Shown: positions 38,069 to 42,182 of the stretch, in pieces
Numbering within the stretch: position 1 is the stretch's first letter
How the letters are laid out: each line of letters begins with the position of its first letter
Assembly (NCBI RefSeq): GCF_000380185.1
Contig: NZ_KB904765.1
Location: 1 to 43,293 of the forward strand
Direction: 5' to 3'
Source: Thiofilum flexile DSM 14609
GTDB lineage: Bacteria; Pseudomonadota; Gammaproteobacteria; Thiotrichales; Thiotrichaceae
Length of the DNA stretch: 43,293 bases
Program-made: the position numbers and the translations under genes
The notes under the pieces: model-generated
Told to the model about the DNA's origin: nothing
Databases searched by the model: none
What the model saw: the letters and a program-made list of their open reading frames with translations, nothing else

Positions 38069-38563
38069 TTATGGAAGAAAACGCCACAACTGACAAGATC
38101 CACCATCAAAATCAGAACCAGGATGCATAGTCAATTCATCCTTGCAATACTTCGCATCTAAATACTTATTATTATATTTGAGTTGCAGACGACTCCAGCC
38201 GCCCCCGACAGGCACTAAGCGCCACAACTGACAAGATCCACCATCAAAATCAGAACCAGGATGCATCACCAATTTATCTGTACAATAACTTGCATCTAGA
38301 TACTTATTATTATATTTGAGTTGTAAACGCCCCCATCCTCCTCCAACAGGTACTAAGCGCCACTTTTGGCAAGCACCATCTGCATAATCAGAACCAGGAT
38401 GCATCACCAACTCTTCCCCACAATATTTTGCATCCAGAAACTTATTATTATACTTGAGCTGTAGACGTGCAAACCCATCTCTATCTGCCTGTACTTGTGA
38501 AACACCTATGCTCAAGCCCAAACTGGAAGCAACAAGTAAAATCAATACTTTACGGCTAAACAT
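38069..38563 (-). CDS. Secreted beta-trefoil (ricin-type) lectin with three near-identical repeats
   Basis: A 164-residue exported protein. A signal peptide (VLILLVASSLGLSIGVSQVQA) ends near residue 26, and the rest consists of three 46-residue repeats starting at residues 33, 79 and 125; the last stops after 40. Each has RLQLKYNNK(F/Y)LDA, MHPGSD, and the ricin-family QxW motif (CQKWRLVP, CQLWRLVP, CQLWRFLP). Three QxW repeats make one beta-trefoil, so the whole mature protein is a single sugar-binding domain. Two Cys per repeat may pair in the periplasm or outside. The repeats are nearly identical at DNA level too. An AGGAG ribosome binding site precedes the ATG. The ligand is unknown. Confidence 0.82.
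   Translation of the reverse strand: MFSRKVLILLVASSLGLSIGVSQVQADRDGFARLQLKYNNKFLDAKYCGEELVMHPGSDYADGACQKWRLVPVGGGWGRLQLKYNNKYLDASYCTDKLVMHPGSDFDGGSCQLWRLVPVGGGWSRLQLKYNNKYLDAKYCKDELTMHPGSDFDGGSCQLWRFLP
38072..38467 (-). repeat. Three tandem 138-bp units in the lectin gene
   Basis: Units at 38467-38330, 38329-38192 and 38191-38072 (the last cut to 120 bp by the stop codon). Units 2 and 3 share long identical stretches, for example the block beginning at 38082 and again exactly 138 bp later at 38220. This points to recent duplication or gene conversion between units. Confidence 0.8.
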
Positions 38564-39694: not shown

Positions 39695-40639
39695 CTATGC
39701 CGCTGATTTCTCATCATGACAATCTCCTTGTATGGGTAATTTGAACCATACCCCCTGCCCGCTGCGCTGCAGGTAATTCACGAAGCGCACCGGCTGTAAA
39801 AAGTTAGGGGCTTTATGAGTAGGCTCAAAACAGAACTTTTTTGGTAGCTCAGTATACAGTGAACGGGGCGGCAGGTCGGTTTCACGTTCTAGCCCCTTGA
39901 GCTTATTGCCAGTTTCAAAGCTGTTATAAAACACCTTGCCAATACCCAGCTCATGACGGATAAAACGCACGGCTGCTGCCAGTATCGCCTCGGACCACAC
40001 CCGCGCATAAGGCCGCAATGCCTCACGATAGGCCTGCATTGCCTCTGAACCATAGATTCGGTCGTGATACGGTTCACAGGATTTACGCACCCAGTCAGAC
40101 TGGATTTCCTCAATCAGTGCTTCATCACTGGCAAAATCAAGATCAATCCGCGCCCAAGCCAGTGTTTCATAATCACCATCCCGCCGTACCGGATGATTGC
40201 GATAGGAAAAAGGCGCAACCTCTGGAGTATTCAGTAGGCTACGTAAATAACGGACATGATCGCTGGCAAAATTTAGCTGTAGTACCAGATGGTAGCCGGT
40301 ACGGGTTAGCTGATGCCAAGCACGCCGCTGATGTTTATCCGTCCCCCACTCACCCAGTGTCAACATGAAATGCAGCGGTTTGCAATGTGTGTATTCTCCC
40401 CGTGCCAGCTCTAGATGCCAAGGCTCTAGCACCCCCTTACCGGCTCGTGCCAGCGCATCGCGCACAATGGGCTTACTCAACAGCCGTGCATAAGGTGACT
40501 GACGCAGTCTAGCAATCGCCATGCCGTCACCAATATAGTCCTGTAATAACTGAATAGCGTAGCTGTCTGGTACATAACGAAATACTCTACGCTGCTCGCT
40601 CAGGCAAGCGTGAATCATTTCAAGCTGTGTTTTTTCCAT
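39695..40639 (-). CDS. Unknown protein with the EIQSDW motif of phage polyvalent proteins
   Basis: The 314-residue soluble protein has no known function. Its middle (about residues 165-200) reads TLAWARIDLDF, then ALIEEIQSDW. From memory, the same arrangement (an NHF/HP block, a short strand pair, then EE(I/V)QSDW) occurs in large polyvalent and PLxRFG-type proteins of phages and prophages. Further matches follow: a Trp-containing helix (WSEAILAAAVRFIRHELG), KVFYNSFETGNKLKG, and SLYTELPKKFCFE, like the YDKxLPK end of those domains. The N-terminal third is unlike them. It is translated from GGGGAGCC just upstream of the ATG at 40639, directly after rtcB and an unusual hairpin. A role in RNA repair is suggested only by position. 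Confidence 0.7.
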   Translation of the reverse strand: MEKTQLEMIHACLSEQRRVFRYVPDSYAIQLLQDYIGDGMAIARLRQSPYARLLSKPIVRDALARAGKGVLEPWHLELARGEYTHCKPLHFMLTLGEWGTDKHQRRAWHQLTRTGYHLVLQLNFASDHVRYLRSLLNTPEVAPFSYRNHPVRRDGDYETLAWARIDLDFASDEALIEEIQSDWVRKSCEPYHDRIYGSEAMQAYREALRPYARVWSEAILAAAVRFIRHELGIGKVFYNSFETGNKLKGLERETDLPPRSLYTELPKKFCFEPTHKAPNFLQPVRFVNYLQRSGQGVWFKLPIQGDCHDEKSAA

Positions 40640-40723: not shown

Positions 40724-41920
40724 TTAACCCTTTATACAAATCACCTGTTTCAAGGTATGTACGACTTCAACCAGATCGATCTGGTTTTGCATCACTACAT
40801 CGATATCCTTGTAGGCACCGGGGATTTCATCTACTAAGTTCTTATCCTTGCGGCACTCCACCCCATTGGTTTGAGCTATCAGATCACGGGTATTAAAACG
40901 TCGTCTCGCTTCGGTACGACTCATGCGCCGCCCCGCACCATGCGAGCAGGAACAGAAGGATTGTTCATTACCTAAACCGCGCACAATATAGGATTTCGCC
41001 CCCATACTGCCCGGAATAATGCCTAACTCTCCTTCCTGAGCACTGATCGCTCCCTTGCGGGTGACATAGACCTCGGCTCCGAAATGGGTTTCCTTTTCTA
41101 CATAGTTGTGGTGGCAATTGATGGCCTCGCGCGTCGTGGTGAAAGCAGGCAACTCGGTTTGCAAAGCATCCAACACTAGGCGCAACATTTCGCGGCGGTT
41201 AGTCATAGCATAATCCTGTGCCCAACCCACCGCTTCGATATAATCATCAAAATGCTGTGTACCTTCGGTGAAATAGGCCAGACTCTGATCCGGTAACTGC
41301 CCTAATTCTCGTCCGACATCCTTTTTCGCTTTTTCAATGAAATAGCGCCCGATGGCATTACCAATACCACGGCTACCAGAGTGCAGCATGACCCACACAT
41401 CCTCACTTTCATCAATACAAAGCTCAATGAAGTGATTGCCGCCTCCAAGTGTGCCAAGCTGTTTACCCCAAGAGTGGTCAAAGTTCTTCAGCATCTTTAC
41501 GAGGCCCGCATGTTTGTCGGCAATGACATTCAGGTGCTTTGCCATATTTTTCAGAGTCGCCCCCTGTATAGTGGCCTTGCGGTGTTCATTAAAACCAACG
41601 GGCACGCGCTTTTCGATTTCGTTACGCACGCTATAGAGATTATCGGGTAATTGTCCGGCCTTGAGCGATAGGCGTACTGCGTTCATGCCGCAACCAATAT
41701 CTACCCCGACTGCTGCCGGAATAATCGCGCCACGCGTTGGAATCACAGAGCCAACGGTAGCACCTGTTCCGACATGCACATCCGGCATAGCGGCAATATG
41801 ACTATGAATAAAGGGGAGTTGCGCCATATTTCCCAATTGGGTTAGGGAGGCATTGTCCACATCGCTGGTATAGACTTTAACGGGAACCTTGCCCGTATTG
41901 AGCATAAATTGAATAGGCAT
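40724..41920 (-). CDS. rtcB: RNA-splicing ligase RtcB
   Basis: It joins RNA ends bearing 2',3'-cyclic phosphate or 3'-phosphate to 5'-hydroxyl ends, using GTP and Mn2+, through a His-GMP intermediate; in bacteria it serves RNA repair. The 398-residue protein shows the metal-site segment VGVDIGCGMNAVR (Asp74, Cys77), LGGGNHFIELCID, MLHSGSRGIGNAIG, CHHNYVEKE, and the guanylylation region FCSCSHGAGRRMSR. Length is close to E. coli RtcB. AAGG lies nine bases before the ATG at 41920. No rtcA, rtcR, archease or Ro/TROVE gene is in the window. A structured leader with a terminator precedes it, so it is probably controlled by attenuation. Confidence 0.95.
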   Translation of the reverse strand: MPIQFMLNTGKVPVKVYTSDVDNASLTQLGNMAQLPFIHSHIAAMPDVHVGTGATVGSVIPTRGAIIPAAVGVDIGCGMNAVRLSLKAGQLPDNLYSVRNEIEKRVPVGFNEHRKATIQGATLKNMAKHLNVIADKHAGLVKMLKNFDHSWGKQLGTLGGGNHFIELCIDESEDVWVMLHSGSRGIGNAIGRYFIEKAKKDVGRELGQLPDQSLAYFTEGTQHFDDYIEAVGWAQDYAMTNRREMLRLVLDALQTELPAFTTTREAINCHHNYVEKETHFGAEVYVTRKGAISAQEGELGIIPGSMGAKSYIVRGLGNEQSFCSCSHGAGRRMSRTEARRRFNTRDLIAQTNGVECRKDKNLVDEIPGAYKDIDVVMQNQIDLVEVVHTLKQVICIKG

Positions 41921-41955: not shown

Positions 41956-42125
41956 AAAAAAACCCGGAGACTGATGCCATCCGGGTTTTCGACATGCAAC
42001 ACACTCGTGCGTCTTGCCGGATGACTGTACATTTCATGTTCAGTCTCCCGGCTATAGCGGGAGACTTTAGGTATTCATGAATCCTAGATTTGAGTTATGT
42101 TGTACAAGCATGTCGTCCGTCTCCC
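41956..42125 (-). ncRNA. Structured rtcB leader with terminator: candidate attenuator or small RNA
   Basis: On the minus strand upstream of rtcB, four segments can pair in alternative ways: 1, GGGAGAC (42125-42119); 2, AGTCTCCCG (42066-42058); 3, CGGGAGACTG (42050-42041); 4, CAGTCTCCGGG (41973-41963). Segments 2 and 3 form a perfect 9-bp hairpin. Segment 4 belongs to a terminator with a perfect 10-bp stem (41989-41980 with 41968-41959) followed by seven T. Segment 3 can pair instead with segment 4 over 8 bp (GGAGACTG with CAGTCTCC), which would break the terminator; segment 1 can then take segment 2. An outer stem (GCATGTCG at 42108-42115 with CGACATGC at 41990-41997, extended by GCAACA/TGTT) encloses the central part. 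No riboswitch class was recognised. Confidence 0.6.
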
Positions 42126-42155: not shown

Positions 42156-42182
42156 CTAATACTAGCAGTAGAAATATGTCAA
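42156..42182 (-). promoter_or_regulatory. Candidate promoter for the rtcB leader
   Basis: On the minus strand a perfect TTGACA (42182-42177) is followed after 15 bp by TATTAG (42161-42156). A second -10-like TATGAT lies at 42133-42128 without a good -35. Either would start transcription just ahead of, or at, segment 1 of the leader. The short spacer keeps confidence low. Confidence 0.35.

Follow-up and report, generated by a model that had tools for sequence, protein, structure and literature searches.

Introduction

What governs an rtcB gene that has no sigma-54 promoter? To our knowledge, the control of such genes has been little described. The window studied here, which is the whole stretch of 43,293 nucleotides from contig NZ_KB904765.1 of Thiofilum flexile DSM 14609, carries an rtcB gene on its minus strand, and an earlier note on this DNA had claimed that a transcription-attenuator-like leader made of four segments precedes it. 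The segments are indeed found there, all on the minus strand: GGGAGAC at 42125-42119, AGTCTCCCGC at 42066-42057, GCCGGGAGACTG at 42052-42041, and GTCTCCGGG followed by seven T ending at 41956. The claim of an attenuator-like leader is borne out, as the element is conserved with covariation in the family of the window (Thiothrix and relatives). When the conservation check that the note had proposed was carried out in relatives by means of a covariance model and coevolution tests, the segments proved to be kept before rtcB beyond chance. The view that no known RNA class fits holds as well, since the leader matches no Rfam class. The sensor, for which the note had named RNA damage, a ligand or RtcB itself, had been left open; the anatomy described below points to a ribosome on a short open reading frame (ORF). 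We think that the leader is quite probably an attenuator of transcription that is set by a ribosome, as in the his operon.

Organization of the leader

The leader contains six switch strands (Table 1). The helices S1:S2, S3:S4 and S5:S6, the last of which is the terminator, are exclusive of S2:S3 and of the antiterminator S4:S5. The mutually exclusive helices expected of a leader-peptide attenuator, one of them an intrinsic terminator, are thus present. Several elements had been absent from the earlier description, namely the identity of segment 1 as a Shine-Dalgarno (SD) site, a 14-codon upstream ORF (uORF) between segments 1 and 2, and strands S4 and S5.

Table 1. Elements of the leader and the two genes behind it, with positions in the window
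Feature	Position	Strand	Sequence and role	Evidence
Sigma-70-type promoter-like pair	42156..42182	-	TTGACA 42182-42177, spacer 15, TATTAG 42161-42156	Consensus match only
S1	42119..42125	-	GGGAGAC; first strand of the switch, also the SD site for the uORF	S1:S2 coevolution
S0	42108..42115	-	CGACATGC; region of uORF start, with S0' as possible partner	S0:S0' coevolution
Leader uORF	42067..42111	-	MLVQHNSNLGFMNT; 14 codons and TAA	ORF at the same place in family rtcB loci
S2	42057..42066	-	AGTCTCCCGC; directly 3' of the uORF stop; partner S1 or S3	Coevolution, covariation
S3	42041..42052	-	GCCGGGAGACTG; partner S2 or S4	Coevolution, covariation
S4	42016..42027	-	CAGTCATCCGGC; partner S3 or S5	Coevolution, covariation
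S0'	41990..41997	-	GCATGTCG; partner is the uORF start region	Coevolution
S5	41976..41988	-	AAACCCGGATGGC; pairs with S6 as 5' terminator arm, or with S4 in the antiterminator	Coevolution, covariation
S6	41960..41968	-	TCCGGGTTT; 3' arm of the intrinsic terminator	Folding, coevolution, covariation
T7 tract	41956..41962	-	Terminator tract	Sequence
rtcB	40724..41920	-	RNA ligase, 398 aa	PF01139, E 1.4e-128
rtcB-associated gene	39695..40639	-	314 aa, function not assigned; relatives also behind a leader without rtcB	Association with rtcB; weak GNAT-like fold

The 184-nt leader folds with a predicted energy of -61.2 kcal/mol (z -4.5 against dinucleotide shuffles, with none of 200 shuffles equally stable). 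No family reached its gathering threshold when the window was scanned with Rfam, which did not find a Y RNA there either; ARAGORN found no tRNA in the window, and the sole Rfam match on 14 related loci was a tRNA gene. The promoter-like pair was not listed by a stock promoter scan. Among 29 leader-type rtcB genes, the best TTGACA-/TATAAT-like pair lies 25-31 nt before the SD site in 17, and is elsewhere or weak in the rest. Strong folding, a promoter-like pair and a terminator would together yield a discrete RNA of about 190 nt, and under relaxed thresholds the best weak Rfam score on the leader is that of a small RNA, GadY, at 18.9 bits against a gathering value of 45, a score that owes much to the hairpins and the terminator. 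However, conservation tracks the mutually exclusive helices and the ORF, and the element stays before rtcB or rtcB-linked genes. In our opinion it is very improbable that the leader primarily yields a stable, terminator-ended small RNA with a function in trans, the switch being secondary.

Coevolution and covariation of the strands

Alignment A1 comprises 29 leaders (L003-L032 minus L012 and L014, plus L039). For each helix, the duplex energies of strands from the same species were compared with those of partners permuted among species, using 5000 permutations. For S1:S2, S2:S3, S3:S4, S4:S5, S5:S6 and S0:S0', none of the 5000 permutations was as good. These counts rest on related sequences, and non-neighbouring pairings were used as the control for relatedness: S1:S4, S2:S5, S1:S6 and S2:S4 were equalled in 2852, 1755, 2647 and 5000 of 5000 permutations, respectively. 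Single leaders vary, with the weakest cognate S1:S2 at -2.7 kcal/mol and the weakest S0:S0' at -0.5 kcal/mol.

Covariation was evaluated on alignment A2, formed by 23 of the 29 leaders after leaving out near-identical ones. In the terminating structure (S3:S4 with S5:S6), 92.4% of the cells are paired and 11 of 19 pairs show two-sided changes, none of 500 shuffles being as high on any measure. The opposing structure (S2:S3 with S4:S5) has 93.9% of its cells paired and two-sided changes in 10 of 18 pairs; none of 500 shuffles reached it on four measures, and 63 of 500 did so on the fifth, which counts further pair types.

These tests favour the present wiring over the one proposed earlier, in which segment 3 paired with segment 4 (that is, S3:S6) as antiterminator. 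Such pairing is possible in the species of the window, but across the leaders it is weakly kept (282 of 5000 permutations as good, versus 0 of 5000 for S4:S5), and on this weak coevolution that wiring was rejected as unsupported. Pairing of segments 1 and 2 had been assigned to read-through; S1:S2 belongs instead to the terminating state.

A ligand-binding riboswitch, or an autoregulatory site bound by RtcB, would likewise have alternative structures and a terminator. Yet no Rfam family reaches its gathering score on the leader, and in alignment A1 the invariant or nearly invariant columns all fall within the U-tract and the switch strands or directly adjoin them by one base; no conserved aptamer-like loop core was found by column conservation. 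Conservation of the uORF also speaks against readings of this kind, to which we give very little credence.

The leader ORF

The uORF of the window, ATGCTTGTACAACATAACTCAAATCTAGGATTCATGAATACCTAA, has a stop codon that abuts S2. The upstream regions of 30 family rtcB loci (L003-L032, several of them named Thiothrix records) were read, and a script found an SD-led uORF with its stop at S2 in 29; in the remaining locus (L012), the sequence of which has unread bases, the uORF was seen by eye. Ten further leaders lie outside alignment A1, and nine of them have an SD-led uORF ending at S2, including one that starts with GTG and one that ends in TGA (G029); the script found no SD-led uORF in the tenth (G251). 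The peptides differ among the family loci (MLNKHRRSNSIN, MRKFNLNNT, MFNYQSRLIS, MHALALNNT and others), which indicates that the ORF is kept rather than its product.

For codon counts, we picked 23 uORFs so as to reduce the share of close relatives. Their 239 codons in frame 0 include no internal stop; there are 21 stops among the 216 codons of frame 1 and 16 among the 216 of frame 2. As frame 0 is free of stops by construction, these numbers describe the background only. There is no run of control codons for any one amino acid in the uORFs, although Asn is modestly enriched. Such a run is typical of the attenuators of biosynthetic operons, not of every leader-peptide attenuator.

Could the leader nevertheless sense one charged tRNA, for instance tRNA-Asn? 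Asn codons number 34 in the thinned set, with 20.7 expected from shuffles (p 0.001); reading the two remaining frames gives 17 and 13. At least one Asn occurs in 21 of the 23 uORFs. Their positions vary, though, and the Asn is often the last codon, where the folding model described below predicts termination anyway. Moreover, the codons over which that model switches on (2 to about 4) are not constant among the leaders (L-V-Q, L-N-K, F-N-Y and R-K-F are examples), and Phe is likewise enriched (p 0.004) among the many residues tested. We consider sensing of a single charged tRNA unlikely. As the early codons differ among species, general failure of elongation would be favoured as the signal over shortage of one amino acid.

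Predicted mechanism

The effect of a ribosome was modelled by constrained folding, in which folding of each leader stopped after S5, at the point of choice that precedes synthesis of S6, and the bases covered by the ribosome were barred from pairing. This is an equilibrium calculation in which kinetics and transcription speed are ignored. Without a ribosome, S4:S5 outweighs S3:S4 in five of the 29 leaders (L015, L025, L030, L032 and L039). With a ribosome on the start codon, codon 2 or codon 3, it wins in 20, 27 and 25 of the 29, and with the stop codon in the A site it wins in one. With three other footprint sizes the number of such leaders stayed at 5 without a ribosome; it ranged from 20 to 26 for the start codon, from 25 to 26 for codon 2, from 23 to 27 for codon 3 and from 1 to 2 for the stop. 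When the letters of S2 were shuffled, the antiterminator won in 20 of 145 cases without a ribosome, 37 with one on the start codon, 46 on codon 2 and 5 at the stop. The leader of the window is predicted to be switched on by a ribosome at codons 1-3 and off from codon 4. Exceptions are L020 and L021, which never switch on, and L032, which is on even with the ribosome at the stop codon. In constrained folding, then, the choice of helix depends on the position of the ribosome, as in a leader-peptide attenuator.

The following sequence of events is proposed. RNA polymerase would start at the housekeeping-type promoter. If no ribosome occupied the uORF, S1 would pair with S2, or the S0 helix would form, followed by S3:S4 and S5:S6, and transcription would stop before rtcB. 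During normal translation, the ribosome at the stop codon would cover S2, S3:S4 would form and transcription would also end. A ribosome held on the first codons would cover S1 and leave S2 free; S2:S3 would form, S4 would pair with S5, and rtcB would be transcribed in the absence of a terminator. Because read-through needs S1 covered while S2 is free, the leader would report ribosomes that start but fail to elongate, and would respond by turning on an RNA ligase. The expected triggers would be cut ribosomes or tRNAs, or a blocked A site. The analysis shows the uORF, six coevolving strands and a folding that is predicted to depend on where the ribosome sits, whereas the action in the cell and the natural signal are inferred.

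Chance level and distribution

Chance occurrence was evaluated by searching for a chain of five alternating helices, the last of them a terminator, with a threshold of -70, and with a joint test that adds an SD-led uORF ending at S2. The region of the window scores -95.0, which none of 30 shuffles of that region reached. Scores of -70 or better were obtained by four of 3480 shuffles and by four of 308 real control upstream regions, none of them with a matching uORF. The joint test was passed by 22 of the 29 distinct rtcB upstream regions of the family, and by none of the 3480 shuffles or the 308 other upstream regions of the same loci. Of 70 upstream regions of rtcB from outside the family, 14 reach the threshold and four (L039, L056, L061 and L075) pass the joint test; among the 10 that fail the uORF rule, L040, L077 and L078 look real by eye, and several others look like chance. 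The threshold is also reached by six of the ten further leaders outside alignment A1. Distant members present different letters and the same scheme, so the architecture appears to outlive the sequence.

A covariance model was built on S2-S6 and run on 63 genomes of the family, in which the genus of the window is represented by one. It gave 38 matches at E 2e-8 or better. In 35 of them an rtcB gene follows at a distance of no more than about 220 bases, two of the 35 copies being partial or split; the other three lie at a contig end (G017) or have rtcB-associated genes downstream (G008 and G045). The leader is present before all 33 full-length rtcB genes of the leader type found in the family, a count that is partly circular because 22 of them are in the alignment of the model and 11 are outside it, G004, G015 and G016 being the more distant. 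One further copy of this type (G037), with the first 90 residues missing from the match, had no covariance-model match. Elsewhere in the genome of the window no second leader was found; there is one 23-base match at E 0.06.

When the search was extended to the class, 17 of 369 genomes matched at E 0.01 or better, three of them family members. Outside the family, G294 has a weak match (E 0.0027) before rtcB, with the SD-led uORF MHKSNKQQLT. The leader in G251, like that in G008, precedes a homologue of the window gene at 39695-40639, and in G362 a short stretch separates it from a downstream gene whose relatives in L058 and L060 are close to rtcB. In the family genome G045, the leader stands before the gene for a small basic protein, one that in other loci comes after rtcB or after the partner gene. 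The presence of the leader before rtcB-associated genes indicates that it tracks the rtcB gene set, not rtcB alone. Eleven of the 14 class matches outside the family were rejected as true leaders and taken as chance, since the script found no uORF in them and the stretch examined contained no rtcB-linked gene.

Genes associated with the leader

The gene at 39695-40639 adjoins rtcB in many gammaproteobacteria. At the cut-offs used, searches of Pfam, NCBIfam and PADLOC gave no match for its product. The AlphaFold model (pLDDT 87.8) gave a best Foldseek E of 0.098 and VIA-align Z values of at most 7.8, with GNAT entries in the top rows. The fold may thus be called weakly GNAT-like; naming the product as a GNAT was rejected, as these structural matches are too weak.

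Other genes recur in the neighbourhood. A small basic protein of about 58 aa, with the motifs RKGGAH and SRSG, recurs behind rtcB or the partner gene in L150, L153, L033 and others; L150 has it about 110 bases past the leader, with no other gene found between the two. A protein family of at least about 280 aa, for which Pfam gave nothing significant, occurs near rtcB or the partner gene (L154 3325-4170, L058 365-1198 and L060 1592-2413), and the member in L154 is downstream of a leader. Within the window, 38069-38563 is predicted to encode a ricin-type beta-trefoil lectin domain protein (PF14200). In the Thiothrix-like loci L004-L018, the T tract of the terminator is directly followed by the start codon of rtcB. 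This places the 3' arm of the hairpin where the rtcB ribosome-binding site would also be, and judging from this arrangement a second, translational layer of control is possible in these loci.

Two rtcB types and two controls

The genome of the window has a second rtcB, 58% identical to the first, together with a gene for RtcR. Among the family genomes, 31 long copies of the second type were counted. A sigma-54 -24/-12 site with at least 10 of the 12 consensus bases was found in all 17 fetched upstream regions of the second type, each site being reached by 0 to 2 of 40 shuffles, and in none of the 29 upstream regions of the leader type. Sigma-54 control of the leader-type gene was rejected on that count, and control by RtcR and sigma-54 probably serves the other rtcB type in the family. 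According to excerpts of PMC7790460, RtcR senses tRNA halves with cyclic phosphate ends and controls rtcBA. As far as these excerpts go, RtcR with sigma-54 resembles the leader of the window in that an rtcB gene is controlled, and differs in that a protein activator acts there at a sigma-54 promoter.

Comparison with known systems

The his operon attenuator of enterobacteria has six strands, in which helices 1, 3 and 5 terminate and helices 2 and 4 antiterminate, and a ribosome over the first strand leads to read-through. The leader of the window shares this six-strand logic. It differs from the his attenuator in having no run of a single codon, in using the SD site itself as the first strand, in the lack of conservation of the peptide sequence, and in having an RNA ligase as target.

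The closest precedent is the leader of armZ (PA5471, RtcB-like) in Pseudomonas aeruginosa. In the excerpts available of PMC12057347 and PMC3516279, a 13-aa leader peptide, PA5471.1, and predicted terminators are described, and an attenuation is proposed in which impaired ribosomes lead to read-through; an excerpt of PMC3575510 terms this control translational attenuation. According to the excerpts of PMC12057347, armZ adjoins prfH and its role is that of a MexZ anti-repressor. Both systems, as far as the armZ one is described in these excerpts, have a short leader ORF before a gene of the RtcB family. Mutation of the PA5471.1 start codon reportedly gives constitutive expression of armZ, whereas our model of the window leader predicts termination without a ribosome. 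By score, the RtcB of the window falls outside the PrfH-coupled subfamily TIGR03073 (150.8 bits against a cut-off of 271.8).

The PA5471 leader is known here from the literature, and five PrfH-coupled genes above the cut-off were analysed. Strong SD sites with uORFs of 12-13 residues were found in L175 and L179, and L176 offered a single weak candidate. Before all five genes, the search for six-strand chains stayed short of -70. In L175, the 13-codon uORF MKNTLLPFADLFS has a 3' half complementary over 15 bases to a stretch just before the ligase gene, which looks like a different and simpler type of leader-ORF control.

Colicin E3 cuts 16S rRNA, and according to PMC9223846 an E. coli strain is protected against it by RtcB2-PrfH. 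By analogy, damaged ribosomes would be a plausible signal for the window leader. Among the matches listed by a literature search in which subscription journals are thinly covered, no rtcB leader was recognised apart from PA5471.1.

Conclusions

The leader before rtcB is a real and conserved member of the leader-ORF attenuators, and apparently an undescribed one. Two traits are unusual, namely the use of the SD site as the first switch strand and the absence of a conserved control codon. The proposed mechanism finds good support in the comparison of leaders and in their folding.

We put forward more tentatively, as a proposal that may well prove wrong, that the leader works as an AND gate (ribosome initiated AND not elongated) which senses any broken translation machinery and switches an RNA-repair regulon formed by rtcB, its GNAT-like partner and the small basic protein. 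This would operate in parallel to the second rtcB, controlled by RtcR, which would sense cut RNA itself.

If the attenuation model holds, a cheap RNA device would tie failing translation directly to RNA repair, and two rtcB copies in one cell would respond to two kinds of signal. Taken together with armZ, it would suggest that control of RtcB-family genes by a leader ORF is a recurrent solution. The genes found behind the leader would also become candidates for new RNA-repair or ribosome-rescue factors.
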